This document shows positions 287-40,086 of a stretch of DNA of 58,742 bases, in pieces. Position 1 is the first letter of the stretch. The number at the start of each line of letters is the position of its first letter. Source of the DNA: Prevotella sp. (GTDB taxonomy: Bacteria; Bacteroidota; Bacteroidia; Bacteroidales; Bacteroidaceae). A program made the translations under genes and the position numbers. The stretch spans positions 1-58,742 of the forward strand of contig JAFUFD010000071.1 in the NCBI GenBank assembly GCA_017470055.1. The letters are read 5' to 3'. Under the pieces are notes generated by a model. It was given only the letters and a program-made list of their open reading frames with translations. It was not told the DNA's origin and did no database searches.

Positions 287-580
287 TCTCTAACCGAAAC
301 TAATTGGGAAGAAAGAGATAATATTGATAATTAATGTCAAACCACAATAAAGTGAAAGTGCCTATGGGCTGAGACAGAAATACGTATTAAGACATATAGA
401 AAAAAGCGTCCGCTTGAATCTTGTTACCTGAAATTCGCCAAAATTAAAAGTAACAACCAAGAGTAAAAGCAAGGATGCTCACGCTGAAGCGTGGGCTTTT
501 ACTCGGATATGGTTGTATTGGTGTTTGGCGATACCTCAGGTAACGTAGACGAAGTAAGTAGTCCACGTTTATTTTTATTA
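287..580 (+). ncRNA. Highly structured RNA, stand-alone or long leader
   Basis: From 423 to 544 the RNA can fold into one long rod: GTTACCTGA (423-431) with TCAGGTAAC (536-544), TCGCCAAA (435-442) with TTTGGCGA (524-531), CAACCA (454-459) with TGGTTG (510-515), GAGTAAAA (461-468) with TTTTACTC (497-504), and a tip hairpin GCTCACGC-TGAA-GCGTGGGC (477-496). A further hairpin, GTAGAC/GTCCAC (545-566, one mismatch), precedes a T-rich run and could be a terminator. There is no ORF inside. The promoter spacing and possible terminator suggest a free RNA of about 290 bases; alternatively it is the peptidase leader. A long interrupted hairpin is the general shape of 6S RNA, but I cannot assign a family. 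Pairings are read directly; the RNA status is inferred. Confidence 0.5.
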
Positions 581-615
581 TAGTAATTACCTAAATAATT
601 AAATGATATAGATTT

Positions 616-3600: not shown

Positions 3601-4266
3601 GCTCAGAACTATGAGTTCAGTTACGTTGCTGGTAAGTTGACAATCACAGAGGCTGATCTTGTTACTGTAACAGCAAAGGACTATACCATCAAGTATGGTG
3701 ATGATATTCCTGCCTTTGAGTTCACCAGTAGTGGTGCCACATTAGAGGGAACTCCCTCTATCACTTGTGAGGCGACATCTGCATCTCCCGTTGGTACTTA
3801 TCCTATCGTTATCAGCAAGGGTGGTGTGACGAACTATAACGTCACCTATGTCAACGGTACGCTGACCATCGAGAAGGCACCGTTGAAGATCACGGCGAAG
3901 GACTATACCATCAAACAGGGTGAGGCATTGCCTACCTTCGAGGCTAACTACGATGGCTTCAAGAACAACGAGACAGCAACAGTGTTGACTAAGAAACCTG
4001 TGTTCTCTACTACTGTGACTTCGGCAAGTGAGCCTGGCGAGTATGAGATTACAGTCTCTGGTGCAGAGGCTCAGAACTATGAGTTCAGTTACGTTGCTGG
4101 TAAGTTGACAATCACAGAGGCATCTGGAATCATCGGCGTATCAGTAGACAATCCGATGGATATCTACGACTTGCAAGGTAACAAGGTTCGTTATCGTGCC
4201 ACCTCACTTGAAGGACTGCCTAAGGGCGTGTATATCATCAACGGTCATAAGGTGATAGTAAAGTAA
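616..4266 (+). CDS. Secreted C10 (streptopain) peptidase with Spi and MBG repeats
   Basis: 1216-residue exported cysteine peptidase. Residues 1-20 are a signal peptide. Residues 21-125 look like the Spi propeptide/inhibitor domain that precedes C10 peptidases. The catalytic domain is about 140-370, with Cys170 in TGCVATA, His312 in SGSGHAFVVDGYD, and the NWGWGG block at 328-333 typical of the family. After about 380 come beta-rich stalk domains. Four MBG-type repeats start near 858, each opening with a KYG or KQGE motif and closing with GTLTI or GKLTI. The C-terminal about 45 residues end in LPKGVYIINGHKVIVK, the surface-sorting or T9SS-like tail common in Prevotella. The substrate cannot be read from sequence; host-protein degradation is an inference from C10 relatives such as interpain A. 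It is a single-gene unit bounded by a terminator at 4289. Confidence 0.9.
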   Translation: MRRTFLFVTCFFVSILMMAGNVTYEQAEQAARKFLREHRSVSSSQQMKMAAKRQVPMGLAHDANAYYVFNVGSDEGFVVVSGSNLTSQVLGYATKGSFKQEKIPVNMKAWLDDYAEQIAYIERTMGKNQAPILRRNRAALAPLLTSKWNQDAPYNNMCPLYGGYRSVTGCVATALAQVINYHKYPAQTTAPIPSYTTKTYGISMPEIPITTIDWDNMLDSYGSGATTAQKNAVAQLMLLCGQAVEMNYTPDESGAVGRLDVKALRQYFGYDETVRDLARNAFSASEWEAIIYNEIANNRPVLYNGSSSGSGHAFVVDGYDGNELFHINWGWGGMDDGYFLLSVLNPHNNESIGSSSSKDGYSINQDAVVGIQHGTGEKIAERFLVFEMTNQGDATYTRSSSSSNFTGISVQPGIFNLTSETHQFNLGVALFNADDDPIKLLKQINWGEEQDGSGGWYPFSNISFGADLSDGDYYIVPVSRTENSDAWEPCWGSNVYRIKATISGNTLTLTEPTVDLSATVSTTGSTIVNTTVHVQAQITNNGTDFNDYVYLSVGNNIVGGCMFEAKAGETATFEIDFVPTSTGAKTLTLSYLKDAHFTTKEYVPFATGSVTIAAGEGDSDLKGTITITNANDEGNVEGTTAKLRVNVRNAGSGKFDNGYIAIDLYKYESGWSYQTYKGLFTTIGAGGSTVITGSFDNLELGGLYAFQLSYTLDEGNTWTDLSDSFVSFEVVDPSAERPKLSGSFTLTNANSQGNITETTAKLKVIVKNEGTSALEHKAVIVELSKYNPTTKAYEYQDDGGYYMDIAVGQTGNFNKDFTGLEMGARYKVQIGYSINGVTWSYITNSAFEFSVVEPAEEEVILTADNKTRKYGEENPELTYTKTGEGTLSGTPTLSCSATKTSVVGEYDIVIARGTVTNTNLTLQNGKLTVTKAPLKITAKDYTIKQGEALPTFEATYEGFKNNETSEVLTKQPVITTTATSASKPGEYEITVSSAEAQNYEFSYVAGKLTITEADLVTVTAKDYTIKYGDDIPAFEFTSSGATLEGTPSITCEATSASPVGTYPIVISKGGVTNYNVTYVNGTLTIEKAPLKITAKDYTIKQGEALPTFEANYDGFKNNETATVLTKKPVFSTTVTSASEPGEYEITVSGAEAQNYEFSYVAGKLTITEASGIIGVSVDNPMDIYDLQGNKVRYRATSLEGLPKGVYIINGHKVIVK
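3406..4122 (+). repeat. 468-bp-offset duplication of MBG domain coding sequence
   Basis: Bases 3406-3654 and 3874-4122 are near-identical over about 249 bases at a constant offset of 468 bases (156 codons, two MBG domains). Stretches such as the reading of GEALPTFEA and of QNYEFSYVAGKLTITEA match almost base for base. This shows a recent in-frame duplication inside the peptidase gene. Confidence 0.85.
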
Positions 4267-4288
4267 CCTGATTGAGCATATCATAAGG

Positions 4289-4322
4289 ATGGCATCTACG
4301 TTTTGTAGGTGCCATTTTTTGT
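4289..4322 (+). terminator. Terminator of the C10 peptidase gene
   Basis: ATGGCATCTAC (4289-4299) pairs with GTAGGTGCCAT (4305-4315) with one G-T pair, followed by seven Ts. Confidence 0.85.
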
Positions 4323-4409
4323 TGTAACTATATCTTTTACTGGGGGGATATTCTCACAGGCTGTTACGGCAAAAGCAATAATCCCGCTACTGGTACGTTA
4401 TAATAAGGT

Positions 4410-5525
4410 ATGCAGTGGACTGACAGAATCCGACAGATCAAGATTATTCTGGTGGTGGCAGCAATCGTGATTGCCGTCGCCTCTTTGTTGGTCTCTCACT
4501 TCTTGGTTCGTGACCTGTCCAATGAGGAACGAAGCAAGATGGAGATATGGGCGCAGGCTTTGCACTCTTTGAATGAGGCGGACGAGAATACGGATATCCC
4601 CTTAGTACTGAGTGTCTTGCAAGGCAATAATACCATTCCCGTTATTGTGGTCAACGAGGACGGCAGTATCTACGATTTCCGCAACATCAAAGACTCTCTG
4701 CACGTGAGCGACTATGCCAAGCGCATGATCGGGGCGGGCGACACCATACGGGTGGGCTCGCAGTTGGTGTGCTACGACGACTCAGTGATGTTGAAGCGGT
4801 TGGCGGCATGGCCCTATGTGCAGTTAGGCATTGTCCTTATCTTTGTCGTTGTCGCCATCTTCGCCCTGCTGTCGTCCAAGCGTGCCGAGCAGAACAAGGT
4901 ATGGGTAGGCTTGTCGAAGGAGACCGCCCACCAGTTAGGAACTCCTATCTCCAGTCTGATGGCGTGGACGGAGATGTTGAAGGAGAACTATCCCGACGAT
5001 GAACTTCTGCCTGAGATGGATAAGGACGTGAAGCGGTTGGAGCGTATTGCCGAGCGTTTCTCCAAGATTGGGTCAGTGCCAGAGCCTGTTGACGCCTCCA
5101 TGAATGAAGTCTTGCAGCATGTCATAGAGTACATGGGGCGTCGCACCTCGCAGAAGGTGCAGATTGTAAGTCGTATGCCGGATGAGGGTGTCATTGTCAA
5201 GATGAATGCCTCGCTATTTGAGTGGGTGATCGAGAATCTTTGCAAGAATGCGGTGGATGCCATGGAGGGGGAAGGCTCTATCACCTTGTCTCTATGGAAA
5301 GAGGACAGTCGTGTGGTCATTGAGGTGCAGGACACGGGCAAGGGTATCAAGAAGAAGGACATCAATAATGTGTTTACACCCGGTTTTACAACCAAGAAGC
5401 GAGGGTGGGGACTGGGCTTGTCACTTGCCAAGCGCATCGTGGAGGAATATCATAAGGGGCACATCTTTGTGAAGTCGTCAGAGATTGGCAAGGGTACCAC
5501 ATTCCGTATAGAAGTGCCCTTATAA
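4410..5525 (+). CDS. Membrane sensor histidine kinase
   Basis: 371 residues. One membrane helix at about 10-32, a short periplasmic domain (about 33-133), a second helix at about 136-154, then the cytoplasmic kinase. The H box is ETAHQLGTP with phospho-acceptor His174. The ATP-binding lobe shows an N box (NLCKNAVDAM), G1 (DTGKGI) and G2 (GWGLGLSLAK). There is no clear HAMP domain and no receiver domain. No response regulator is adjacent, so the partner is encoded elsewhere. The ligand is unknown; the sensor domain is only about 100 residues. The ATG at 4410 gives a complete first helix. The preceding 90 bases show no consensus promoter. The kinase call is firm. Confidence 0.9.
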   Translation: MQWTDRIRQIKIILVVAAIVIAVASLLVSHFLVRDLSNEERSKMEIWAQALHSLNEADENTDIPLVLSVLQGNNTIPVIVVNEDGSIYDFRNIKDSLHVSDYAKRMIGAGDTIRVGSQLVCYDDSVMLKRLAAWPYVQLGIVLIFVVVAIFALLSSKRAEQNKVWVGLSKETAHQLGTPISSLMAWTEMLKENYPDDELLPEMDKDVKRLERIAERFSKIGSVPEPVDASMNEVLQHVIEYMGRRTSQKVQIVSRMPDEGVIVKMNASLFEWVIENLCKNAVDAMEGEGSITLSLWKEDSRVVIEVQDTGKGIKKKDINNVFTPGFTTKKRGWGLGLSLAKRIVEEYHKGHIFVKSSEIGKGTTFRIEVPL

Positions 5526-5614
5526 TTTTGCACACTTTCCCTTGTCAATGTGCAATCTGCGTGTTTGTTAGTGGCTGATTTTCAAAGGAAAAGCAAAAAA
5601 AACATAATTCACAA

Positions 5615-5644
5615 TTTGTAATTCGTAATTATTTTGTAACTTTG
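5615..5644 (+). promoter_or_regulatory. Promoter of the yceD-rpmF-fabH-era-der cluster
   Basis: TTTG at 5615-5618, 18 bases, TAACTTTG at 5637-5644. It lies in an AT-rich tandem tract of ATTCACAATT-like words. The predicted transcript starts near 5651, which excludes a TTG start at 5642 for the next gene. Confidence 0.75.
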
Positions 5645-5662
5645 CAAGCCAAAAGTGTAGTT

Positions 5663-6190
5663 ATGTGTAGTCTGGAGACATTTAAGATTGATTTAAAAGG
5701 GATGAAGACCGACGAGCAACGTCTGGAATTTGACCTGGATAATGATTTCTTCAAGGCTTTGGACACCTCGGAGGTGAATGGCGGAGCATTGCACGTGTCG
5801 GTGTCTATACGCAAGGCAACCGGCTTTTATGAGTTCCAGTTCCACACTGAGGGCACGGTGGCGGTTCCCTGCGACATTTGTCTTGACGACATGGAGCAGC
5901 CCATTGAGACGGACAACCGTCTGGTGGCTAAGTTGGGAGCCGAGACGAACACTGAGGATGATGTCGTGATAGTAGACGAGAACGAAGGAATACTCGACCT
6001 ATCATGGCTCATCTACGAGTTTATTGCTTTAGCCATACCCATCAAGCACGTTCATGCACCTGGAAAATGCAATAGTGCGATGACGCAGAAACTCCAAGAG
6101 TTAAGCGGTGCCAACCTGAGAGGCAAAGAGGAGGCTCAAGAGATAGACCCACGGTGGGAGGCACTTGCGAAATTGAACATTAAAGATTAA
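5663..6190 (+). CDS. yceD: YceD/DUF177 family protein
   Basis: 175 residues from the ATG at 5663; a longer reading from TTG at 5642 would start inside the promoter. DUF177/YceD proteins are encoded next to rpmF in many bacteria and are linked to 23S rRNA accumulation and ribosome biogenesis. The family signature is visible: VPCDICLDDM with two cysteines near residue 70, an acidic stretch (EDDVVIVDENEG) before the DLSWLIYEF helix, and a C-terminal PGKCNSAM segment. The gene sits 28 bases upstream of rpmF, the expected order. The family call rests on these motifs and on synteny; the exact molecular role is not settled for the family. Confidence 0.88.
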   Translation: MCSLETFKIDLKGMKTDEQRLEFDLDNDFFKALDTSEVNGGALHVSVSIRKATGFYEFQFHTEGTVAVPCDICLDDMEQPIETDNRLVAKLGAETNTEDDVVIVDENEGILDLSWLIYEFIALAIPIKHVHAPGKCNSAMTQKLQELSGANLRGKEEAQEIDPRWEALAKLNIKD

Positions 6191-6218
6191 AAATTAAACA
6201 TTAAAAAGTAATAGAATT

Positions 6219-6407
6219 ATGGCACATCCTAAAAGAAGACAGTCAAAGACTCGTACCCTGAAGCGTCGTACACATGACAAGGCAGTAGCCCCCACGCTTG
6301 CCGTATGCCCTAACTGTGGCGCATATCACGTTTACCATACCGTATGCCCCACATGTGGCTACTATCGTGGTAAGATTGCTATCGTAATGGACGAAGCCGC
6401 TGAGTAA
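6219..6407 (+). CDS. rpmF: 50S ribosomal protein L32
   Basis: 62 residues, the usual bL32 length. The N-terminus AHPKRRQSKTRTLKRR is the conserved rRNA-binding segment. Two CxxC pairs (CPNC and CPTC, separated by ten residues) form the zinc ribbon, so this is the Zn-containing form rather than the Cys-less paralogue. It lies between yceD and fabH, a very widely conserved order. Its stop codon shares one base with the fabH start, implying translational coupling. Confidence 0.98.
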   Translation: MAHPKRRQSKTRTLKRRTHDKAVAPTLAVCPNCGAYHVYHTVCPTCGYYRGKIAIVMDEAAE

Positions 6408-7417
6408 TGGGAAAAATCAGTGCGATAATCACCGGTATTGGTGGCTACGTGCCCGATTATGTCCTCAATAACGAGGAGTTGTCGCGCATGGTAGACACCA
6501 ATGACGAGTGGATTATGACCCGTGTCGGTATCAAGGAGCGGCGTATTCTCGCCGAGGAAGGATTGGGTACCAGTTATATGGCACGCAAGGCTGCCAGGCA
6601 GTTGCTGCAGAAGACTGGTGTTGATCCTGATACTATTGACGCAGTCATCGTCACCACCTCAACGGCTGATTATAAGTTCCCGTCTACGGCAAGTATCGTA
6701 TTAGGCAAACTTGGACTGAAGAATGCTTTCGCATTCGATTTCTGGGCAGCATGCTGTGGATTCCTCTATACGCTTGATGTCGCCGCCTCCATGATTCAGT
6801 GCGGGCGTTACAAAAAGATTATTGTGATTGGTGCCGACAAGATGTCGTCGGTAGTCGACTACAAAGACCGTGCTACCTGCCCTTTGTTTGGTGATGGTGC
6901 GGCAGCCGTTTTGGTAGAGGGCACCGAGGAAGAGAATATTGGTGTGATGGACTCTTATTTCCGTGCTGACGGTAAGGGACTTCCTTTCTTGCACCTGAAA
7001 GCAGGTGGATCAGTGTCTCCTCCCAGCCATTTCACAGTAGACCACCGCTTGCATTACCTGTATCAGGAAGGTCGCACGGTATTCCGTTATGCTGTGACGA
7101 ATATGAGTGAAGACTGTGCTTTGATAGCAGAGCGTAACGGTCTGAACAAGGACAATATCCAATGGGTAGTGCCGCATCAGGCTAATTTGCGTATCATTGA
7201 GGCTGTTGCAAAGCGCTTGGAGTTGCCCATGGAGCAGGTGATGGTAAACATCGAGCATTTCGGAAACACCTCTGCCGCAACGATTCCTTTGGCACTGTGG
7301 GAGAATGAGCATCTGCTGAAGAAGGGTGATAACATGATCTTCACAGCCTTTGGCGCAGGGTTCGTCCATGGGGCAAGTTATTATCGATGGGCGTATGATG
7401 GAAAGAAAGATGCATAA
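6407..7417 (+). CDS. fabH: Beta-ketoacyl-ACP synthase III
   Basis: 336 residues. FabH condenses acetyl-CoA (or a branched acyl-CoA) with malonyl-ACP to start type II fatty acid synthesis in the cytoplasm. The catalytic triad is visible: Cys116 in AACCGF, His257 in VPHQAN, Asn287 in EHFGNTSAA. A second Cys (117) directly follows the nucleophile, where many family members have Ala. The N-terminal TNDEWIMTRVGI block is also typical. Branched primer use is likely from Bacteroidales lipid chemistry but cannot be read from the sequence. The start overlaps the rpmF stop by one base, and the 3' end overlaps era by eight bases. Confidence 0.97.
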   Translation: MGKISAIITGIGGYVPDYVLNNEELSRMVDTNDEWIMTRVGIKERRILAEEGLGTSYMARKAARQLLQKTGVDPDTIDAVIVTTSTADYKFPSTASIVLGKLGLKNAFAFDFWAACCGFLYTLDVAASMIQCGRYKKIIVIGADKMSSVVDYKDRATCPLFGDGAAAVLVEGTEEENIGVMDSYFRADGKGLPFLHLKAGGSVSPPSHFTVDHRLHYLYQEGRTVFRYAVTNMSEDCALIAERNGLNKDNIQWVVPHQANLRIIEAVAKRLELPMEQVMVNIEHFGNTSAATIPLALWENEHLLKKGDNMIFTAFGAGFVHGASYYRWAYDGKKDA

Positions 7418-8291
7418 AGCAGGATTCGTAAATATCGTTGGGAATCCCAATGTAGGTAAAAGTACGCTCATGAACCAGTTGGTTGGTGAGCGTATTTCGA
7501 TTGCGACGTTCAAGGCGCAGACCACACGGCATCGTATCATGGGTATCGTGAATACCGATGATACGCAGATCGTGTTCAGCGATACGCCTGGTGTGCTGAA
7601 GCCTAACTATAAGTTGCAGGAGTCGATGCTCGCTTTCTCGGAGTCCGCCTTGCAGGATGCTGACGTGCTGCTCTACGTGACAGATGTCGTGGAGAATCCA
7701 GAGAAGAACATGGATTTTCTGGAGAAGGTGCAGAAGATGACCATCCCTGTGTTGCTGCTGATTAACAAGATTGACGAGACAGACCAAAGCAAGTTGGGAG
7801 ATATCGTCGAGAAGTGGCATACGTTATTACCCAATGCGGAGATCCTGCCTATCTCGGCAAAGAATAAGTTTGGCATTGACATGCTGTTGAAGCGCATCAA
7901 GGAGTTGTTGCCGGAGAGTCCAGCCTATTTCGATAAGGACCAGTTGACCGACAAGCCTGCCCGTTTCTTTGTCTCGGAGATTATCCGAGAGAAGATACTC
8001 CTCTATTACGACAAGGAGATACCCTATGCCGTCGAGGTAAGGGTAGAGCGTTTCAAGGAGACCCCCAAGAATATTCATATCAATGCCATCATCTATGTAG
8101 AGCGTGAGAGTCAGAAGGGCATCATTATCGGTCATCAGGGTGTTGCCTTGAAGAAAGTAAGTACCGAGGCTCGTAAGGCATTGGAGCGATTCTTCGATAA
8201 ACCCATTTATTTAGAGACCTTTGTCAAGGTTGATAAAGACTGGCGCTCATCGCAGAAGGAGTTAAATATATTTGGATATAACCCAGAATAA
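7410..8291 (+). CDS. era: GTPase Era
   Basis: 293 residues from the ATG at 7410, which reads MHKAGFVNIVGNPNVGKST; ATGs at 7395 and 7398 in the same frame would add only five residues or fewer. Era binds the 3' end of 16S rRNA and assists 30S assembly. G1 is GNPNVGKS, G3 is DTPGV, G4 is NKID and G5 is ISAK. The C-terminal KH domain carries GIIIGHQG, the RNA-binding GxxG loop. The start overlaps the fabH end by eight bases, so the genes are probably translationally coupled. der follows after six bases, placing two ribosome-assembly GTPases together. Confidence 0.97.
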   Translation: MHKAGFVNIVGNPNVGKSTLMNQLVGERISIATFKAQTTRHRIMGIVNTDDTQIVFSDTPGVLKPNYKLQESMLAFSESALQDADVLLYVTDVVENPEKNMDFLEKVQKMTIPVLLLINKIDETDQSKLGDIVEKWHTLLPNAEILPISAKNKFGIDMLLKRIKELLPESPAYFDKDQLTDKPARFFVSEIIREKILLYYDKEIPYAVEVRVERFKETPKNIHINAIIYVERESQKGIIIGHQGVALKKVSTEARKALERFFDKPIYLETFVKVDKDWRSSQKELNIFGYNPE

Positions 8292-8297
8292 GAAGAT

Positions 8298-9611
8298 ATG
8301 GGAAATTTAGTAGCGATTGTAGGACGTCCGAATGTCGGTAAGTCCACCTTATTTAATAGATTGACGAATTCTCGCCGTGCCATTGTGAGCGACGAGGCAG
8401 GTACCACCCGTGACCGCCAGTATGGCAAGTGTGAGTGGAACGGTCGTGAGTTCTCTGTAGTGGATACAGGCGGATGGGTTGTCAACAGCGATGACATCTT
8501 CGAGGAGGAGATCCGGAAACAAGTGACAGTCGCTACGGAGGAGGCAGACTTAGTGCTGTTTCTGGTAGATATCAAGAACGGCGTGACCGACTTGGATATG
8601 GATGTCGCCCAGATCCTGCGTCGTTCTAAACTCCCTGTCGTCTTGGTCGCTAACAAGGCAGATGACGGAAAGGACCTGTACGGACAGTATGAGTTCTATA
8701 AACTCGGTTTGGGTGACCCATTCTGTGTCAGTGCCGCTACAGGATCGGGTACAGGTGATCTGCTCGACCATGTGCTGTCGAAACTCAAGACGGATGAGGT
8801 CGATGACGTGATAGACGGCACTCCTCGCTTTGCTGTCGTCGGTCGTCCGAACGCAGGTAAGTCGAGTATCATCAATGCCTTTATCGGTGAGGATCGTAAC
8901 ATCGTGACGGAGATTGCAGGTACTACCCGTGATTCTATCTACACGAAATATGATAAGTTCGGTTTTGATTTCTATCTGGTAGATACGGCTGGTATCCGTC
9001 GTAAGAACAAGGTGACGGAGGACTTGGAGTTCTATAGTGTGATGCGCTCCATCCGTGCCATTGAGAACTCAGATGTCTGTATCCTGATGATTGATGCCAC
9101 CCGTGGTATTGAGGCACAGGATATGAATATCTTCCAGTTGATACAGAAGAACAACAAGTCGTTGGTTGTTGTGGTGAACAAGTGGGACTTGGTGGAGGAC
9201 AAGTCACAGATAGCCATCAAGACCTTTGAGAATGCCATCCGCAACCGTATGGCTCCTTTCGTCGACTTCCCCATCATCTTTGCCTCCGCTGTGACGAAGC
9301 AGCGTATCTTCAAAGTGTTGGAGACGGCAAAGCAAGTCTATTTGAATCGTACGACCAAGATAGGAACCTCGAAACTCAATGAGGTGATGCTGCCTTTGAT
9401 TGAGGCGACACCGCCCCCTTCTATCAAAGGAAAGTATATTAAGATCAAGTATGTCAGTCAGGTGCCCGACACCCAGATTCCCACTTTTGTGTTCTATGCG
9501 AACCTTCCCCAATACGTGAAGGACCCGTATAAGCGTTTCTTAGAGAACAAACTCCGTGAGAACTGGACTTTGACAGGAACCCCCATCAACGTATTTGTGC
9601 GACAGAAATGA
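8298..9611 (+). CDS. der: GTPase Der (EngA)
   Basis: 437 residues, normal for Der, a tandem GTPase needed for 50S assembly. First G domain: GRPNVGKST at residues 9-17, DTGGW, NKADD. Second G domain: GRPNAGKSS starting near residue 180, DTAGI, NKWD. A C-terminal KH-like domain occupies about 350-437, with [19 protein letters not shown] near its middle. It is encoded six bases after era and its last four bases overlap the following lipoprotein gene. Confidence 0.98.
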
Positions 9612-10009
9612 GGAAAGTTTTGGCTTTTGGCTTATGGCTTATGGCTTTTGGCTTTTGGCAGAGTTGTTCCCGTCAGGAGCCAACGCCAGAGGAGTTGGCA
9701 GGCAAAGCGGCAAAGGAGTATTACGACCATCTTTTGGCTGGCGATTATGAGGCTTTTCTTCAAGGGAAGGCAGATAGCGACTCGTTGCCGAGTGGCTACC
9801 GTCAAGAGTTGTTGCATGCCTATGAGCAGTTCATGCAAGAGCAAGAGAAAAGTCATGGCGGTATTGTGGGGGTCGACCTCACCAATGCGAGGAACGATAG
9901 CCTTCAACAAGTCATGCAGGCGTTCCTGCTTCTGACCTTCAAGGATTCCGTCAAAGAGGAGATTGTTATTCCGATGGTGCTTCGTGATGGGCAGTGGAAG
10001 ATGCGTTAG
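9608..10009 (+). CDS. Small lipoprotein, DUF4878-like size, function unknown
   Basis: 133 residues. The N-terminus is a short hydrophobic signal ending at Cys20 in FWQSC, so the mature protein is probably a lipoprotein. The remainder (a helix around [23 protein letters not shown], then a strand-rich end [14 protein letters not shown]) resembles small NTF2-like or DUF4878-type lipoproteins, but I do not recognise it with certainty. The signal peptide is encoded by a degenerate tandem repeat of GGCTTTT/GGCTTAT words at 9619-9660. It overlaps der by four bases and overlaps the convergent mlaF-like gene by 44 bases at its 3' end. Confidence 0.7.
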
Positions 10010-10766
10010 TCGCATTGACCACCTCTCGCATCTCTTTCAACAACTCACTGGCGAAGATAAAATCTGTCAACCGTTTATTCGTCGATCCCATGATATCAGC
10101 AGAGACCCCTTGCCATTCCTTATGACCTTCGTAGATGAAGATGATGTTCTCGCCGATGGTCGTCACCGAGTTCATATCATGCGTATTGATAATCGTCGTC
10201 ATGTTGAACTCCTGTGTGATGCTATGCAGCAGGTCGTCAATCACTAATGAGGTTTTGGGGTCCAGACCAGAGTTCGGCTCATCGCAGAACAGGTATTTAG
10301 GATTCAGGGCGATGGCACGGGCGATGGCGACACGTTTCTGCATACCGCCGGATATCTCCCCTGGGAATTTCTCCTCTGCTCCTACCAGATTGACACGGTC
10401 AAGGCAATCCATGGCACGTCTCTGACGTTCCCGTAGGTTCATGGTCGAAAACATATCCAGTGGGAACATCACATTCTCCATCACGGTCATGGAGTCGAAG
10501 AGCGCCGCACTCTGGAAAATCATACCCATCTCCCGTCGCATGTGTATCTTCTCTTGTTTCGACATAGACACAAAGTCACGTCCGTCGTATAGAATCTGTC
10601 CACTGGTAGGCTCTAACAGTCCAACAAGGTTCTTGATCAATACAGTCTTGCCGCTACCACTCTGTCCGATAATCAGATTGGTCTTTCCATCCTCAAAGAC
10701 GGCGTTGATGTCCTGTAGCACGTCTTTGTCGTCAAAACTCTTGTATAAGTTCTTTACCTCTATCAT
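9966..10766 (-). CDS. ABC transporter ATPase, MlaF-like
   Basis: 266 residues. Walker A is GQSGSGKT (34-41), the signature is ISGGMQKRVAIARA, Walker B is YLFCDEPNSGLDP, and the switch His is in THDMNS. The GMQKRV form of the signature is typical of the MlaF/Ttg2A group that energises phospholipid traffic between outer and inner membrane. The permease gene lies directly upstream and overlaps by four bases. No MCE-domain (MlaD) gene is in the window on this side, so the substrate-binding component must be elsewhere. Its 3' end overlaps the convergent lipoprotein gene. Confidence 0.9.
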   Translation of the reverse strand: MIEVKNLYKSFDDKDVLQDINAVFEDGKTNLIIGQSGSGKTVLIKNLVGLLEPTSGQILYDGRDFVSMSKQEKIHMRREMGMIFQSAALFDSMTVMENVMFPLDMFSTMNLRERQRRAMDCLDRVNLVGAEEKFPGEISGGMQKRVAIARAIALNPKYLFCDEPNSGLDPKTSLVIDDLLHSITQEFNMTTIINTHDMNSVTTIGENIIFIYEGHKEWQGVSADIMGSTNKRLTDFIFASELLKEMREVVNATNASSTAHHEAPSE

Positions 10767-11515
10767 GACAGCAGTTGGGTTAGGAAGACATCAGAGAAAA
10801 GTATCAGGGCACTGGACGACACCACGGCATCAGTAGACGCTTTACCTACGTTGACGGAACCGCCCTCAACGGTATAGCCGAAGTAAGAGGGGACTGCCGT
10901 GATGATGAAGGCAAAGAATTGGCTTTTGATGATACTCATCCACACAAACCAAGGTATGAAGGCATGCTGTAGTCCCAAGGTGAGGTCGTCAGGCACGATG
11001 ATATGTCCCACATAGGCAGTGCCATAGGCTCCGATAATACCCATGCCAGAGGAGAAGATGACCAGCAAAGGCATGATGGTGAGCATTCCCAGGATCTTGG
11101 GTAGTATGAGGTAGCAGGCGGAGTTGACTCCCATGATGTCCAGGGCGTCAATCTGCTGTGTCACTCGCATCGTTCCTATCTCTGAAGCGATGTTAGAGCC
11201 CACCTTTCCAGCAAGGATCAGACACATGATAGATGAGGAGAACTCCAGCAGCATGATCTCACGAGTGGTGTAGCCAGCCACCCATCGGGGCATCCATGGT
11301 GACTCGATGTTCACCTTCATCTGAATACAGATGACCGCACCGATAAAGAACGAGATCAGCAATACGATTCCGATGGAGTTGACACCCAGTTGTGCCATCT
11401 CTTTCACATATTGTTTCCAGAACATGCGGAATCGCTCGGGAATGGAGAAAGTGCGTCCCATCAGCAAAAGGAATTTGCCAAACATGGTTAGCCACTTATA
11501 TAGTAAATTGATCAT
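10763..11515 (-). CDS. MlaE-family lipid ABC permease
   Basis: 250 residues from the ATG at 11515 (MINLLYKWLTMFG). An upstream in-frame ATG at 11590 would extend through the promoter box at 11536-11543 and is rejected. The protein has about five to six hydrophobic segments and the MlaE/DUF140 hallmarks: the amphipathic N-terminus, EIGTMRVTQQIDALDIMG in the middle, and a GGSVNVGKASTDAVV stretch near the C-terminus. It pairs with the ATPase at 9966-10766 to form the inner-membrane part of a phospholipid transporter. Confidence 0.9.
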   Translation of the reverse strand: MINLLYKWLTMFGKFLLLMGRTFSIPERFRMFWKQYVKEMAQLGVNSIGIVLLISFFIGAVICIQMKVNIESPWMPRWVAGYTTREIMLLEFSSSIMCLILAGKVGSNIASEIGTMRVTQQIDALDIMGVNSACYLILPKILGMLTIMPLLVIFSSGMGIIGAYGTAYVGHIIVPDDLTLGLQHAFIPWFVWMSIIKSQFFAFIITAVPSYFGYTVEGGSVNVGKASTDAVVSSSALILFSDVFLTQLLS

Positions 11516-11535
11516 CTTTCTTTCTCTTTTCGCTG

Positions 11536-11543
11536 CAAAGGTA
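11536..11543 (-). promoter_or_regulatory. -7 box of the mla-like operon promoter
   Basis: CAAAGGTA on the plus strand reads TACCTTTG on the minus strand, 20 bases upstream of the permease ATG. The upstream -33 TTTG is not well conserved. It is back to back with the lptB promoter. Confidence 0.5.
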
Positions 11544-11570
11544 CATAAATTTATGAAAAAACTAATAGGT

Positions 11571-11605
11571 TTGGTTGGTTTTTCTCGCAATTTGCACTAT
11601 CTTTG
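11571..11605 (+). promoter_or_regulatory. lptB promoter
   Basis: TATCTTTG at 11598-11605 with a degenerate TTGG-rich -33 region around 11571-11578. It lies eight bases before the ATG at 11614, so the 5' UTR must be very short. This rules out an in-frame TTG start at 11575. Confidence 0.65.
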
Positions 11606-11613
11606 CAGTCGTT

Positions 11614-12435
11614 ATGGACGAGACAACGAACAGACAGGAAGAGCAACTGGTGCTTCGCACAGAGGGACTTGTGAAGATTTACGGCAAGCGTACTGTGGTC
11701 AACGACGTGAGTTTTGACGTGCGACAGGGAGAGATCGTGGGACTGCTGGGACCTAACGGTGCTGGTAAGACCACCTCTTTCTATATGACGACAGGACTGG
11801 TGGTGCCTAATGGCGGTCATGTCTATCTGGGCGACGAGGAGGTGACTGACTATCCCGTTTATCGTCGTGCCCGTGCTGGTATCGGCTATCTGGCGCAGGA
11901 GAACTCCGTGTTCCGTAAGATGTCCGTGGAGGATAATATCCTCTCTGTACTGGAGATGACGGGTAAGCCCCGTGACTATCAGTTGGAGAAGTTGGAGAGT
12001 CTGATCAAGGAGTTCCGTCTGGGCAAGGTGCGCAAGAACAAGGGCGACCAGTTATCTGGTGGTGAGCGTCGTCGTACGGAGATAGCCCGTTGCCTTGCCA
12101 TCGAGCCGAAGTTCATCATGCTCGATGAGCCTTTCGCAGGTGTCGACCCTATCGCCGTGGAGGATATCCAGCAGATTGTATGGCAGTTGAAGTATCGTAA
12201 TATCGGTATCCTGATTACAGACCATAACGTGCATGAGACCCTGAATATCACGGACCGTGCCTATCTGTTGTTCGAGGGGCGCATCCTGTTCCAGGGCAGT
12301 CCTGACGAACTTGCCGTCAATCCTATCGTGAAGGAGAAATACCTCGGCTCCAACTTCGTCTTGCAGAAGAAAGACTTCCAGCGGATGGCGGAGGACAAGA
12401 GACGGAAGGAAGAGGAAGAAGACGCAGCATCATAA
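11614..12435 (+). CDS. lptB: LPS export ABC transporter ATPase
   Basis: 273 residues from the ATG at 11614. LptB powers lipopolysaccharide extraction from the inner membrane. Walker A GPNGAGKT (46-53), signature [16 protein letters not shown] and Walker [15 protein letters not shown] are in the exact LptB form, as is the switch [10 protein letters not shown] charged tail of about 30 residues ([16 protein letters not shown]) extends past the family core. No lptF, lptG or lptC is adjacent. It is divergent from the mla-like operon and ends in a bidirectional terminator. Confidence 0.95.
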
Positions 12436-12440
12436 AATAA

Positions 12441-12474
12441 AAAGGAATCAGTCAATCAACTGATTCCTTTTATT
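12441..12474. terminator. Bidirectional terminator between convergent genes
   Basis: Perfect 12-base inverted repeat AAAGGAATCAGT (12441-12452) / ACTGATTCCTTT (12459-12470), with an A-rich tract on the left and a T run on the right. It serves lptB from one side and the nucleotidyltransferase operon from the other. Confidence 0.9.
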
Positions 12475-33040: not shown

Positions 33041-33115
33041 GGGCGCTTAGCTCAGTTGGTTTAGAGCATCTGCCTTACAAGCAGAGGGTCGGGGGTTCGA
33101 ATCCCTCAGCGCCCA
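33041..33115 (+). tRNA. tRNA-Val (anticodon TAC), copy 1
   Basis: 75 bases. Acceptor GGGCGCT/AGCGCCC, D arm with AGCTCAGTTGGTTTAGAGC, anticodon loop CTTACAA (anticodon TAC), T loop GTTCGAATC. CCA is not encoded. Identical in sequence to the copy at 35164. Confidence 0.97.
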
Positions 33116-33120
33116 CAAGG

Positions 33121-35163: not shown

Positions 35164-35238
35164 GGGCGCTTAGCTCAGTTGGTTTAGAGCATCTGCCTTA
35201 CAAGCAGAGGGTCGGGGGTTCGAATCCCTCAGCGCCCA
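35164..35238 (+). tRNA. tRNA-Val (anticodon TAC), copy 2
   Basis: Identical over all 75 bases to the gene at 33041. Here the discriminator A is followed by CCA (35239-35241), which copy 1 lacks. Confidence 0.97.
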
Positions 35239-35244
35239 CCAAGG

Positions 35245-35279
35245 AAACCTCCTCCCAAACTCGGAAGAGGTTTTTTTTG
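35245..35279 (+). terminator. tRNA-Val copy 2 terminator
   Basis: AAACCTC (35245-35251) / GAGGTTT (35267-35273), then a run of Ts. Confidence 0.8.
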
Positions 35280-35307
35280 TTTTAATAATAAAAAATGAGT
35301 GAAGAAA

Positions 35308-35339
35308 TTTGGTTTTTCTTTCACTAATTATTAACTTTG
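35308..35339 (+). promoter_or_regulatory. Promoter of the caspase cluster
   Basis: TTTG at 35308-35311, 20 bases, TAACTTTG at 35332-35339; first ATG at 35366. No other promoter box or terminator is seen before 39926, so the four genes probably form one operon. Confidence 0.7.
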
Positions 35340-35365
35340 CGCACTAAGAATTAGAAATTAAAAGA

Positions 35366-36232
35366 ATGAGACAAGCCGTAGTCCTCATACTCATGATGTT
35401 GTCGATCACAGCCTTCGCCCAGAAAGTGAAGACGGTAGAGGGAGAATACACCTACTATGCTCCTGAGAACGTGACGGTGGAGGAGGTAAGGCGTACAGCC
35501 TTAGAACGCGCTAAGATACAAGCGATAGCCGATGAGTTTGGTACTATTGTCCAGCAGACGAATACGACCCGTATTCATACCAATGACAATAAGTCGTCAA
35601 CAGACTTTTTCATGATTGGCGGAAGTGAGGTGAAAGGTGAGTGGATTGAGACCCTTGGCGAACCTCAATTCAGCAATCCTGTCTTTCAAGACCATACGAT
35701 TGTCATTACCTGTAAGGTAAGGGGTAAAGCACGAGAGATTGTCACTGCTCAGATAGACTTTAAGGCACGTGTGTTGCGCAATGGCACTGAGGATAAGTTT
35801 GAGGATGACGACTTCAAAAGTGGTGATGACCTCTTCCTGTCATTTGTCTCTCCTGTAAGTGGCTATCTTGCCGTTTATCTTGTCGATTCGGGTGAGAAGG
35901 CTTTCTGTTTATTGCCCTATCGCAATCAAGTGGATGGCATCTATCCTATTGAGGCGAATCGTCGCTATTTGTTTTTTAATATCAAGGAGGCATCCCAGCA
36001 GGAACGTCCTTTTGTGGATGAGTACAATATGACTTGCGAGCATTCTATGGAGCATAATGTGATCTACGTTGTCTTCTCGCCTAATCAGTTTGCCAAGGCT
36101 GCAGACAGTACAACGAGCGAGTTGTTGCCTCGTGAACTCTCGTACGATGACTTCCAGAGATGGCTTGCCAATTGCCGTAAACATGATCACGAGATGATTC
36201 CGCGGCGCATACCTATTGTGATTAAGAAATAG
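35366..36232 (+). CDS. Exported DUF4384-type protein, caspase cluster gene 1
   Basis: 288 residues. Signal peptide 1-18 (TAFA-Q). Residues 20-125 form an alpha-beta domain with conserved-looking ALERAKIQAIADEFGTIV, similar to LPP20/FlgT N-terminal-type modules. Residues about 150-235 (DDLFLSFVSPVSGYLAVYLVD, then FCLLPY) match the DUF4384 pattern, a domain often encoded with caspase-like or kinase proteins. C-terminal about 40 residues are basic. First gene of a four-gene exported cluster. No lipobox, so it is periplasmic or secreted. DUF4384 assignment is by eye and moderate. Confidence 0.7.
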   Translation: MRQAVVLILMMLSITAFAQKVKTVEGEYTYYAPENVTVEEVRRTALERAKIQAIADEFGTIVQQTNTTRIHTNDNKSSTDFFMIGGSEVKGEWIETLGEPQFSNPVFQDHTIVITCKVRGKAREIVTAQIDFKARVLRNGTEDKFEDDDFKSGDDLFLSFVSPVSGYLAVYLVDSGEKAFCLLPYRNQVDGIYPIEANRRYLFFNIKEASQQERPFVDEYNMTCEHSMEHNVIYVVFSPNQFAKAADSTTSELLPRELSYDDFQRWLANCRKHDHEMIPRRIPIVIKK

Positions 36233-36267
36233 AAAATGATATATTAATTCACTAAAACCCCAAGATT

Positions 36268-37050
36268 ATGAAAAAAGCATTATTACTCTTAGCACTATGC
36301 TGCATTGGTTGGAGCAATGTGAATGCCCAGTCGGAGTATAAGAAGTGGTTGAAATCAGAGAAGAAAGACGCTACTTATACCAGAAAGGAAGTGAAGAAGG
36401 CTGCCAAAGAATATGCGGAACTTATTTATGAGGATGCTAAGGAGGTGTTTAAACAAAGAGAGAACTTTGCAAGCAAGAGCATCAAGAAGAAAGAGAAGTT
36501 CATGATGGATGAGTTTGCGAGTGAGGTTCTGGGATATCGAGATCAGAGATACAAGGTAAACGATAATCTGCCCAGTTTGGAAAATCAGGTGGAAGCCGAC
36601 GTACGTGCCAAATGGTCGTATGATACGGATTTGTTCCCCACCAATATTTCTGGTGAGGCAAAATGTGTGGCAAAGACTTACGAACTTTCTACCAGCAAGG
36701 CTTACGATATGGCTCGTGAGAATCTTGCCAATGAGATTGTACATGAGATTACGTTGCAGTTTGCCAAGAAAGATTTCGTGAAACGTTTTGGTCTCGTAAA
36801 GGCTCAGGAGATGGTGCAGGCTATCCTTGATACTAAGAGTGGTATCCAGGAGAACATTGGAGATGTGCAGAAAGTACTGGAGATTTATAACAGCAAGAAT
36901 CTGGTAAGTGCCGAGGTGTTTGTAAGAATCTATTATAGTGGCATTCAGGCAAAGGCAGATTTCAAGGCGGCACTCAGGGACGTGCTCAAGAATGACGCTT
37001 CGCTCTATAACGAGATGACCTATTTCTTGGATACAGCAAAAGTTAAATAA
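36268..37050 (+). CDS. Exported LPP20-like protein, caspase cluster gene 2
   Basis: 260 residues. Signal peptide 1-20 (VNA-Q). Residues 22-85 are strongly charged and helical (KKWLKSEKKDATYTRKEVKKAAKE), probably coiled coil. Residues 125-220 hold an alpha-beta module with NISGEAKCVAKTYELSTSKAYDMARENLANEI, resembling LPP20-family domains, and a closing strand SAEVFVRIYY. Gap to gene 1 is 35 bases and to gene 3 is 19 bases. Function unknown. Confidence 0.65.
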   Translation: MKKALLLLALCCIGWSNVNAQSEYKKWLKSEKKDATYTRKEVKKAAKEYAELIYEDAKEVFKQRENFASKSIKKKEKFMMDEFASEVLGYRDQRYKVNDNLPSLENQVEADVRAKWSYDTDLFPTNISGEAKCVAKTYELSTSKAYDMARENLANEIVHEITLQFAKKDFVKRFGLVKAQEMVQAILDTKSGIQENIGDVQKVLEIYNSKNLVSAEVFVRIYYSGIQAKADFKAALRDVLKNDASLYNEMTYFLDTAKVK

Positions 37051-37069
37051 AAACAATTAAATACAGATT

Positions 37070-38143
37070 ATGAAAAGAATCAAGATTATGTTTGCACTGG
37101 TGGCTGTCATGTTTGCCATGGGTGCTCAGGCTCAAAAGCAGGCTTTACTGGTGGGCTATTCACAGACAGACAATGTTTATGAAGACGAGAATATCAGGGC
37201 AGAACTGGTGCGCTTGTCACTGAAGATTACCAACAAGACCAACAAACCCATTTTCGTAGACCGCTCAAGTTCGTTCTATTATGTGAACGATGATGCTGTC
37301 TGCCTTGACGAGAAACGTGATGATACCCAAAAAAACTATCAGCCACTGGCACCTAAAAGCGATACATGGGTCTCCACACTGATAAATCCCATTAGGGGCA
37401 AATACGATGCTGGTGGCGGTAGTGGTCGTCGTGGCGGTAAGGCGAAGTATCAGACGGACTTGCAACTTCAGGTGATGAACTATATGGAGACCATGCGCTA
37501 TGAACTTGCTAACAACCAGAAGAAGTCATGCACAAACATTCACCTTACGGGTGACGAGTCTTTCATGAAGGTAAAGGTATATATCAGATACGATTTGGAG
37601 AGGTATTTCCCTGAAAGTAAGAAAGAGCGTGAAGACCATACCTTCACACTCTCTACGTGGGTGTCAGATATGATTCTCTCAAAATACTACATTCAGGATC
37701 AGGACAAGGTAAAACGTACCAACGCAGTGAATATCCAGGGGCGTATGACCGATATCATGCATGTTTTTGCCGATACTCCTTTTGAATATGACGAGGACAA
37801 CTCACCTCTTGATATCTACCTCGCAGACTTCGATAAAGGAAGGTTTAATATCTACCGTTTGGGTGCGTCTGACGCAGAGAAGGAAGGTAAGCCAGAAAAA
37901 GGCGATACCCCCAAGGGAAGAGATAAGAAAGGTGGTCAAGAGGAGATGAAGTCAAACTTCGAGGAACGTTCCAAGGTACGCCAGGTACTTGTATGGGAAG
38001 GCGAAAGTACCAATTGGGTGCAGGCTCTGCAAGATTCTTATGAGAGATATCTGGTGGAGGACGGACTGAAGCCTAAAAAGGCTCATGATGAGGCAAAGGA
38101 TTTTGCCAAGAAGCAGAAAGGTCTGCAGACACTTAAACCATAA
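37070..38143 (+). CDS. Exported hypothetical protein, caspase cluster gene 3
   Basis: 357 residues. Signal peptide 1-22 (AQA-Q). Residues 25-110 look like a beta-sandwich (AELVRLSLKITNKTNKPIFVDRS). A Gly-rich loop GGGSGRRGGK follows, then a mixed domain to about 260, a Lys/Gly-rich linker (EKEGKPEKGDTPKGRDKKGG, near 270) and a helical tail. I do not recognise a family. Its place between the LPP20-like and caspase genes, with 9 bases to the caspase start, suggests a joint complex; inference. Confidence 0.65.
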   Translation: MKRIKIMFALVAVMFAMGAQAQKQALLVGYSQTDNVYEDENIRAELVRLSLKITNKTNKPIFVDRSSSFYYVNDDAVCLDEKRDDTQKNYQPLAPKSDTWVSTLINPIRGKYDAGGGSGRRGGKAKYQTDLQLQVMNYMETMRYELANNQKKSCTNIHLTGDESFMKVKVYIRYDLERYFPESKKEREDHTFTLSTWVSDMILSKYYIQDQDKVKRTNAVNIQGRMTDIMHVFADTPFEYDEDNSPLDIYLADFDKGRFNIYRLGASDAEKEGKPEKGDTPKGRDKKGGQEEMKSNFEERSKVRQVLVWEGESTNWVQALQDSYERYLVEDGLKPKKAHDEAKDFAKKQKGLQTLKP

Positions 38144-38152
38144 GAACAATCT

Positions 38153-39925
38153 ATGAGAAAGACAGCCTTTATCATCCTTTGGTGCGTCATTGGAGTGATG
38201 CCTCTGATGGGGCAGACCATCGACCAAGAAGTGGTGGATGGATGCGAGTTCCTGCGCATGGGGCGTTTCGACAAAGCCTATGCTTCATTCTCGAAGGGAG
38301 CCCGTTTTGGTAGTGTTGTCGCCCAGTACTATCTCGCCTATTGCCAGGCTGAAGGCTATGGCGTGGCAAAGGATGATAATAAGGCTTTCTTCCTCTATCG
38401 CAGGGTTGCCGAGCGTGGTCTACCCGTTGCCCAGGCTCGACTTGCCTATTTATTATATAAAGGTATAGGTACGAATAAGGACGTGGCTAAAGCCCGTTAT
38501 TGGATAGACAAGGCAACAAACTATAGTAATGTAGACTCCTATACTACCTATGTGCTGGGACTTTGCTATGAGGAGGGACTGGGTCGAGAGAAAGACATGG
38601 AGAAAGCCATGGAATGCTTCCAGAAGTCGTGCAAGAAGAATGTTGACGAGGCACTCATCCATACGGCAATGCTTTTTGCGGAAGGAAGACAACTAAAGCA
38701 GGACTTCCCTCAGGCATTGGGCATAATCAACAATGCCATAGAGAATGTCGGGTCAGGCTTCGACTATGCTTGTAAGGGCAGGATCCTCACACTTATGGGA
38801 AATAAGAAAGAGGCAGGGTCTGTATGGCGTTCCATGATCAGCAACTATCCTTATTATGCTGTGCAAAGTTCTGATGATTTCAGTATGTATATGCGTGGCA
38901 CAAGCCCCATCCCCAATGATGTGATCACAGGTTTATACGCCAAGGCTGACGTGGCTTCAAAGTCGTCCAAATATAGTTATAACTCGCTGGAAGAGGATGA
39001 CAATCATGCCAACAATAGCATTAACATCACATACACCATGGCTCCGAGCATTCAGCATCAGGAGACCGCTACGGTTCCAAGTATAGCCCCGACACCTAAA
39101 GCGGTAACTCCAGTTGCTCCTACTCCTAAGGAAGAGGAAGTTATGGTCGATGTGGATGTCAACCTACCAACCACTAACGTCAGCAATGACAACACCTTTG
39201 CAGTGATAATTGCCAATGAGCATTATCAGGATGTCGCCGCAGTGCCCTATGCCAACAATGACGGGACTATTTTCGCTGAATACTGTAGGAAGAGCCTTGG
39301 ACTGCCTGCTACCAATGTACACTTGGTGAAGGATGCTACACTTAATAACATGAAACGTGAAATCAACTGGCTCAAGCAGGTGTCGCATGCATACAAAGGA
39401 TCTGCGAAGATTATAGTTTACTTCGCAGGTCATGGTATTCCAGACGAGGCAACAAGAAATGCCTATCTTCTGCCTGTTGACGGTTTCGCTACAGACATTA
39501 CCACTGGGTATAGTCTCCAAGCATTATATGCTACGCTGGGGGACTTACAGGCGAAATCGATAACGGTTCTTCTCGATGCATGCTTCAGTGGCTCTATGCG
39601 TGACGGAGGTATGATGGCTTCTGCTCGTGGTGTTGCCATCAAGGCAAAGAACAGTGCGCCCAAAGGCAACATGGTTGTTTTCTCTGCTGCCTCTGGTGAG
39701 GAAACGGCTTATCCCTATAAAGAGAAACATCATGGTCTATTCACCTATTATCTACTTAAGAAACTGCAAATGAGTAAAGGGAATATTTCGTTGGGTGATT
39801 TGCAGAGTTACGTGACAGAGGAAGTCGCTAAGAAGTCTATTGTAGTGAACGGGAAATCACAGACCCCCACAATATCTTTCTCTGCCACTGTCGGAGAGGA
39901 CTGGAAGAAATGGAACTTTAAGTAG
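38153..39925 (+). CDS. Exported Sel1-repeat caspase-family protease
   Basis: 590 residues. Signal peptide 1-20. Residues about 25-210 are Sel1/TPR-like repeats (AQYYLAYCQAEGYGVAKDD, ARLAYLLYKGIGTNKD, YVLGLCYEEGLGREKD). A Pro/Thr/Val-rich linker runs about 300-330. A caspase p20-type domain occupies about 345-560, with the catalytic dyad His427 in YFAGHG and Cys477 in LLDACFSG. FAVIIANEHYQDV is the first strand and PYANND an early loop. The dyad is intact, so it should be an active peptidase. Unlike most bacterial caspase-like proteins it is exported. Substrate unknown; Sel1 repeats likely bind partners from the same operon. Confidence 0.9.
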   Translation: MRKTAFIILWCVIGVMPLMGQTIDQEVVDGCEFLRMGRFDKAYASFSKGARFGSVVAQYYLAYCQAEGYGVAKDDNKAFFLYRRVAERGLPVAQARLAYLLYKGIGTNKDVAKARYWIDKATNYSNVDSYTTYVLGLCYEEGLGREKDMEKAMECFQKSCKKNVDEALIHTAMLFAEGRQLKQDFPQALGIINNAIENVGSGFDYACKGRILTLMGNKKEAGSVWRSMISNYPYYAVQSSDDFSMYMRGTSPIPNDVITGLYAKADVASKSSKYSYNSLEEDDNHANNSINITYTMAPSIQHQETATVPSIAPTPKAVTPVAPTPKEEEVMVDVDVNLPTTNVSNDNTFAVIIANEHYQDVAAVPYANNDGTIFAEYCRKSLGLPATNVHLVKDATLNNMKREINWLKQVSHAYKGSAKIIVYFAGHGIPDEATRNAYLLPVDGFATDITTGYSLQALYATLGDLQAKSITVLLDACFSGSMRDGGMMASARGVAIKAKNSAPKGNMVVFSAASGEETAYPYKEKHHGLFTYYLLKKLQMSKGNISLGDLQSYVTEEVAKKSIVVNGKSQTPTISFSATVGEDWKKWNFK

Positions 39926-39958
39926 GGCAGTAAATCCTTTATTTCTCAAATCAAATGA

Positions 39959-40026
39959 AGCGTTCAAACGGGTCGTTTGTAAGCCACAAACGAGGTGAAT
40001 GTAGCGTTCAAACACAGTTCGTTTGA
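39959..40026. repeat. GCGTTCAAAC repeats with inverted copies
   Basis: GCGTTCAAAC occurs twice (39959-39968 region and 40003-40012 region). TCGTTTGT (39973-39980) pairs with ACAAACGA (39986-39993), and TCAAAC pairs with GTTTGA around 40008-40026. The spacer is otherwise A/T-rich with no ORF. Could act as the caspase operon terminator or a purB operator. Confidence 0.6.
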
Positions 40027-40055
40027 CAATAAAAATTAAAAAGTATCCTTTTTGT

Positions 40056-40086
40056 TTTGTATTGTTCTCACTTATTCGTACCTTTG
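40056..40086 (+). promoter_or_regulatory. purB promoter
   Basis: TTTG at 40056-40059, 19 bases, TACCTTTG at 40079-40086. The same CACTTATTCGTACCTTTG word is found at tig P1. Confidence 0.75.

Follow-up and report, generated by a model that had tools for sequence, protein, structure and literature searches.

Here, we describe a block of four co-directional genes from Prevotella sp. that pairs an apparently intact, signal-bearing protease of the caspase type with genes for three further proteins carrying signal peptides. The block occupies positions 35366..39925 of a 58,742-nt stretch of DNA (assembly GCA_017470055.1, contig JAFUFD010000071.1), which we refer to as "the window"; the genes are numbered 1 to 4 in the order of transcription (Table 1). 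An initial annotation, made from the sequence alone, had proposed four co-directional genes with gaps of 9-35 bases, one apparent promoter and a signal peptide on every product, and this layout holds. The open reading frames (ORFs) lie as placed, with successive gaps of 35, 19 and 9 nt. The promoter-like element matches the pattern TTTG-N17-23-TAnnTTTG exactly, and the next match on the + strand is the one that belongs to purB, at 40056; across the window the pattern occurs 13 times, against 0.59 expected from shuffled sequences. All four N-termini carry a Sec-like signal according to a crude script. Taken alone, the script is weak evidence because 326 of 733 other ORFs pass as well; the pass rate by family is 70/73 for gene 1, 59/63 for gene 2, 11/11 for gene 3 and 118/129 for the caspase.

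Table 1. Features of the four-gene block and its borders, in window coordinates
Feature	Position	Strand	Remarks
tRNA-Val(tac)	35164..35241	+	ARAGORN; left border of the islet, outside the operon
Accessory islet	35243..40022	+	~4.78 kb; six syntenic relatives of the genus have none at this site
Promoter-like match, Bacteroidetes type, ending in TAACTTTG	35308..35339	+	exact pattern match
Gene 1	35366..36232	+	288 aa (amino acids), DUF4384-like, signal peptide
Gene 2	36268..37050	+	260 aa, signal peptide, predicted LPP20/Tip-alpha-like fold
Gene 3	37070..38143	+	357 aa, signal peptide, small family without Pfam match, immediately 5' of the caspase gene
Gene 4	38153..39925	+	590 aa, Sel1-caspase, signal peptide
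Sel1-repeat region, gene 4	38267..38638	+	~residues 39-162
Peptidase_C14 domain, gene 4	39197..39883	+	residues 349-577
Catalytic His427 codon	39431..39433	+	
Catalytic Cys477 codon	39581..39583	+	

The product of gene 4 matches Sel1 (1.6e-24) and Peptidase_C14 (2.2e-24), both over the Pfam cut-offs; the score against PF00656 is 86.9 bits, with a gathering cut-off of 21.4. The catalytic dyad, His427 in a GHG motif and Cys477 in DAC, sits exactly where the initial annotation had put it. We aligned 66 full-length caspases, i.e., the window's own and 65 of 119 others, all from loci L078-L155; His427, Cys477 and two acidic residues, D370 and D475, are invariant among them. In the wider set of 129 ORFs with a caspase hit, which takes in fragments, 125 of the 126 aligned at its site retain His and 126 of 127 retain Cys, while the acidic S1 positions D370 and D475 are D in 126/126 and 127/127. 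A caspase domain inactive and unconnected to the partners had been named beforehand as grounds for abandoning the idea of a proteolytic complex; the domain keeps its catalytic residues and is apparently intact.

In a sequence profile search, the best solved relatives of the caspase domain are structures of the paracaspase MALT1 (3v4o, E 3e-6). MALT1 is an animal intracellular signalling protease; it is a distant homologue only, and its accessory domains differ. Counting along the alignment with the catalytic His set as 415, which gives Cys464 (the numbering that we take to be that of the MALT1 dyad), D370 falls opposite Asp365 of MALT1 and D475 opposite its Asp462. PMC4357240 assigns these two MALT1 residues to the S1 pocket for P1 Arg. 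Because of this alignment, the caspase of gene 4 is predicted to cut after Arg or Lys.

In front of the protease domain, members of this caspase subfamily carry variable N-terminal "arms" (Sel1, BspA-type leucine-rich repeats [LRR], WG or TPR). Among the 66 aligned caspases, 18 have Sel1 arms, 16 BspA-type LRR, 13 WG and 7 CARDB. On a tree of the caspase domains of 113 proteins, parsimony counts 32 changes of arm type, with the unlabelled class included; seven near-duplicate loci were removed before this and the arm/neighbour analysis discussed below. Gene 4 scores 75.1 bits against the NCBIfam model of EACC1-associated caspases (NF047832), under its curated cut-off of 140. The initial annotation had regarded an exported caspase as a departure from the norm. 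The signal is indeed present, but by the crude script export is the rule in this subfamily, and both signal- or transmembrane-bearing prokaryotic caspases and Sel1-caspases already appear in PMC3501461. Caspase genes can also be clustered: locus L105 has five caspase-domain ORFs on both strands within at most 12 kb (533-12458), together with one gene 1.

Linkage of the caspase to its neighbours is, like the intact catalytic site, well supported. Gene 1 is found in 29 of 201 genomes of the same family, and the window's caspase domain matches 45 of the 201 at E<=0.001, of which 32 lie at E<2e-19, followed by a gap to 7e-11. The close caspase subfamily is present in 29/29 genomes with gene 1, compared with 3/172 of the others (Fisher 6e-32; the source genome is included in these counts); counted by genus, the figures are 11/11 and 3/19 (7e-6). 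These p-values are too small because the genomes share ancestry, but the direction is clear. Rare co-occurrence of the homologues had been foreseen as a possible objection; for gene 1 and the caspase the linkage holds, mostly within one operon. Outside the window, the caspase lies in the fetched stretch of 29 of 33 gene-1 loci. As for the other four, the caspase of L042 is on another contig, the contig of L058 begins inside the 3' end of the caspase gene, and L060 and L068 are short contigs of 6.5 and 3.3 kb.

A wider caspase scan, with one genome per species and the best 80 matches kept, yielded at least 78 loci from named genomes. By title, all belong to Bacteroidales groups, two Candidatus genera included, except L087 (Clostridium). 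Gene 1 is present in 37 of these loci, gene 2 in 32, both in 27 and gene 3 in 10. All four genes share one operon in 3 of the 78: Prevotella sp. UBA2755 (L078) has the order seen in the window, and in L088 and L092 the positions of genes 1 and 2 are swapped. Many gut Bacteroidales carry related sets; that of the window is no one-off. The idea of a dedicated four-gene set with three dedicated partners survives in part: gene 1 is linked to the caspase and gene 3 is seen with the Sel1 type alone, but genes 1 and 2 accompany the subfamily whatever its N-terminus, and the full operon was seen in three of the 78 other loci. L087 itself holds a gene 2-gene 3-caspase set; the metagenome bin has the title Clostridium, but the contig may come from Bacteroidales and have been misbinned.

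Operons of the relatives contain further genes, encoding beta-barrel/CarboxypepD_reg, fimbrillin-like, Lcl_C and CHASE2 proteins, WD40 propellers and a family that we refer to as F3. F3 is the most frequent further operon partner, with 40 proteins of ~530 aa in 34 loci (e.g., L128:10790-12376). Its members look transglutaminase-like, with what resembles a Cys-His-Asp arrangement; by Pfam, one (L040) matches transglutaminase-type models, and the four others examined (L041, L128, L047 and L043) have no match to any family.

Gene 1 had been called DUF4384-like, a description that fits the family better than the protein: the protein itself scores 18.5 bits against DUF4384 (PF14326), below the cut-off of 27, but 28/28 aligned family members match at E<=0.1, the best at 8.2e-8. 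Cyanobacterial orthocaspases with DUF4384 and caspase in one polypeptide are known (PMC8283722, with 23 entries in its Table 1, and PMC7475262). This fusion is an independent sign of a link between gene 1 and the caspase; the cyanobacterial proteins belong to another phylum, and here the DUF4384-like protein is separate and exported. A gene-1 search of 395 phylum-wide genomes, in which at most six candidates were scored per genome, gave a strong match in the source genome only and weak ones in five.

Gene 2 is predicted by structure modelling to fold like Helicobacter LPP20 (HP1456) and Tip-alpha. The earlier label "LPP20-like" is thus sustained by the model, but not by Pfam on the protein itself: neither gene 2 nor gene 3 has a match over cut-off, and with PF02169 (LPP20) gene 2 gives nothing and 1/28 family members matches at E 0.011. 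A 228-aa relative in L212 is over the PF02169 cut-off and matches the gene-2 hidden Markov model (HMM) at 5e-36. In L211 and L212 (genomes G591 and G597), gene-2-family proteins adjoin proteins that match PF02169 or match it themselves; a caspase was not found within the 3.2 kb read there. The N-terminus of gene 2, read by eye, lacks a canonical lipobox Cys, and the crude script scores it as a signal peptidase I substrate (SPI). A single-sequence search finds gene 2 in 21/201 same-family genomes. Profile comparison of gene 1 with gene 2 gave no credible relation (probability 21.6), and PDB profile searches with either returned noise only.

The source genome supplies a second connection, between gene 2 and the caspase. 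At L074 (contig C27, 3231-6459), residues 8-185 of one protein form a gene-2-type domain (E 1.8e-37; the HMM used had been built with L074 left out), fused to a caspase domain (C14 2e-42) that is accompanied by one sub-threshold Sel1 repeat. The gene that follows this fusion encodes a papain-like protease with DUF4384 over cut-off. The caspase of L074 falls outside the close subfamily (7.5e-6 in the window-caspase search); we count the fusion as support for linkage of gene 2 to the caspase.

Gene 3 is unrecognised, as it was in the initial annotation: neither Pfam nor a profile search of the PDB yielded a credible match. Among the 201 same-family genomes, the search returned gene 3 itself and two marginal partial matches. 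The possibility that it is an orphan was rejected when the named-genome scan found 10 members. Among the matches listed, gene 3 is immediately 5' of the caspase gene in 10/10 loci outside the window, and all seven gene-3-adjacent caspases put to Pfam have Sel1 over cut-off. We infer that gene 3 is a cognate partner of gene 4, either a regulator or a substrate.

The block was first described simply as a gene cluster; it is more precisely a variable accessory islet between tRNA-Val and purB. We collected 18 purB regions (2.5-14.5 kb) from 46 genus genomes with a match, the source genome included, and genes 1-4 were seen in none of these stretches. By Pfam, the islet's flanks are an AMP-ligase gene (which we take to be paaK) with an ACT-domain gene, and the adenylosuccinate lyase gene purB. 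The order ligase-ACT-purB is kept in six of the regions, and the islet is missing from all six, in which the ACT gene and purB are 128-474 nt apart, compared with 5.1 kb in the window. In the comparison with L193, whose purB is 95% identical, DNA similarity ends after tRNA-Val at 35242 and restarts at 40023. Conversely, in L078-L081, three or four of the genes are present and the window's flanking genes are absent from the stretches. The islet has a G+C content of 0.447, against 0.495 in the rest of the window. Direct repeats between 35100 and 40160 form three short two-copy families, none of which joins both islet edges, and Pfam finds no integrase in genes 1-4. Rfam matches in the window are confined to 5S rRNA and tRNAs, none within the islet, and the predicted RNA fold of 39926-40040 is equalled or bettered by 20/200 shuffles. 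Two copies of tRNA-Val(tac), at 33041-33116 and 35164-35241, flank the AMP-ligase and ACT genes in the window; the six syntenic relatives carry a single copy apiece in the stretches fetched.

Known systems resemble the block in part. Orthocaspases, or prokaryotic metacaspases (PF00656), share with gene 4 a Peptidase_C14 match over cut-off, the His-Cys dyad and acidic S1 residues; gene 4 differs in its export signal and in its linkage to genes of LPP20-like, DUF4384-like and other exported proteins. Sel1 is reported in 40/671 prokaryotic metacaspases in the survey PMC3501461, and the sections of that survey that we consulted do not describe the four-gene operon. Literature searches, which left subscription journals mostly uncovered, found neither DUF4384 together with LPP20 nor metacaspase together with fimbrillin, and the combination of caspase, LPP20 and Bacteroidetes gave only a Helicobacter review.

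Our preferred explanation, held tentatively and at slightly less than an even chance, is that gene 4 acts in the periplasm as the Arg/Lys-specific caspase of an envelope assembly of LPP20 and DUF4384 type, with gene 3 as its cognate partner or substrate. It draws on the single promoter-like element, the close spacing of the genes, the Sec-like signals, the intact caspase domain and its conserved linkage to the gene-1 and gene-2 families, and further on the low dN (nonsynonymous divergence) of all four genes and the conservation of the Sel1 arm. The islet would encode a single exported proteolytic assembly, formed by its four proteins within the periplasm. The LPP20/Tip-alpha-like gene 2 and the DUF4384-like gene 1 would form a constant envelope scaffold, and the Sel1 arm of gene 4 would dock gene 3. 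Engagement of this partner, or an envelope cue, might then set off limited cleavage, in which the caspase domain would cut an envelope protein behind an Arg or Lys; the target could be gene 3, gene 4 itself or another exported protein, and the cut would switch or mature it. In relatives, the arm (LRR, WG or TPR) and the adjoining gene (beta-barrel, WD40 or other) vary, while the protease domain, and often genes 1 and 2, are kept. Complex formation, the trigger and the substrate of the assembly are all parts that we infer.

Several observations weigh against this explanation. Within the fetched flanks, 41/78 caspase loci lack gene 1 and 46/78 lack gene 2, so the partners are not required in cis. 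Most relatives have gene 2 first and gene 1 second (24 to 4 among the 78 loci, 19 to 3 among same-family loci), the opposite of the window. The correlation between gene-1 and caspase distances (r 0.515, p 0.001, n 55, after removal of eight near-duplicates and two own-genome loci) speaks for the explanation, but it is uncorrected for species history. On the caspase tree, gene 3 is gained as a neighbour a single time, and its pairing with Sel1 accordingly counts as one event; the AlphaFold2 (AF2) model of gene 3 from 10 sequences has a confidence (pLDDT) of 41, too low to be usable. The S1 likeness to MALT1 covers Asp365 and Asp462 but not the third S1 residue, Glu500, and no conserved Arg/Lys cleavage site was seen, in inspection short of a systematic search. 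Lastly, neither dyad residue survives in the tandem paralogue L088:12602-14650. This paralogue retains both acidic S1 positions, and intact caspase copies lie alongside it. Neighbour gene and arm type match in 38/39 cases (permutation p 5e-5); we do not rely on this result because the caspase tree shows one change each for the neighbours gene 3 and F8, two for F10, three for F9 and five for F6, and because the "wg" label, which comes from an iterative search, may include TPR-type arms.

A rather unlikely alternative is periplasmic conflict or defence, with the repeat arm sensing an envelope intruder (phage, bacteriocin or secretion-system effector) and the caspase killing or arresting the cell. 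Several features would suit such a role: the islet's empty site, the patchy spread (29/201 genomes), the 32 changes of arm type and the several caspase paralogues at loci such as L105. However, all four genes have dN far below a saturated dS (synonymous divergence), and among the relatives compared the Sel1 arm is conserved rather than diversified, at a level like that of the caspase domain (88% and 86%, compared with L078), which disfavours an arms race in this lineage. PADLOC has no match in genes 1-3, and its match in gene 4 is to a generic caspase model alone (2.6e-9); Pfam finds no killer domain besides the caspase, with gene 3 unrecognised; and the neighbours that recur at other loci are of the beta-barrel, fimbrillin-like or transglutaminase-looking kind.

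These same neighbours bring up a third explanation, unlikely in our view, in which the caspase is a maturation protease that trims exported subunits after Arg or Lys for surface assembly, in a gingipain-like manner. Gingipain R of Porphyromonas gingivalis matures pilins of the type V pili of that species. It shares clan CD with gene 4, in family C25 rather than C14, and its P1 residue, Arg according to PMC4357240, agrees with the preference predicted for gene 4. Some relatives' operons do include fimbrillin-like (Mfa_like_1), CarboxypepD_reg/outer-membrane barrel and transglutaminase-looking proteins. Yet, unlike a type V pilus locus, the window's islet has no recognised pilin; genes 1-4 give no Pfam match to fimbrillin, and no barrel gene is recognised. 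Moreover, cluster F5, which holds fimbrillin-like and other proteins, is in the operon of 16/116 loci, and the literature searches gave no paper that pairs metacaspase with fimbrillin. Finally, a chance neighbourhood of unrelated exported genes would agree with the abundance of exported genes in these loci and with their varying order and content, but it is very improbable given the co-occurrence of gene 1 and the caspase over 201 genomes, the repeated operons and the fusion protein.

Returning to the envelope-assembly explanation, a broader version is possible, if doubtful: the sets of gut Bacteroidales together would be a modular, recognition-coupled extracytoplasmic protease system that spreads as accessory islets, in which a constant MALT1-like, Arg/Lys-specific caspase and LPP20/DUF4384 envelope scaffold combine with exchangeable repeat arms and matched partners, and limited proteolysis switches or matures surface proteins. 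If true, this would in effect be a caspase signalling platform of the bacterial cell envelope. Bacterial caspase relatives are, in our impression of the literature rather than by count, discussed mostly in connection with cell death and defence; a recurrent exported caspase with a conserved envelope pair and variable arms would show the fold put to another use, in bacteria that are common in the gut. The four-gene set is a testable unit in this respect, both for the exported protein that would be cut behind Arg or Lys and for the trigger of the cut.

A further caspase locus of the source genome, L075 (contig C11, 1-9550), has a 234-aa caspase that has a signal-like N-terminus. By Pfam, its neighbours are two FHA proteins, a PP2C phosphatase and a Hanks-type kinase; another neighbour looks like a second kinase.

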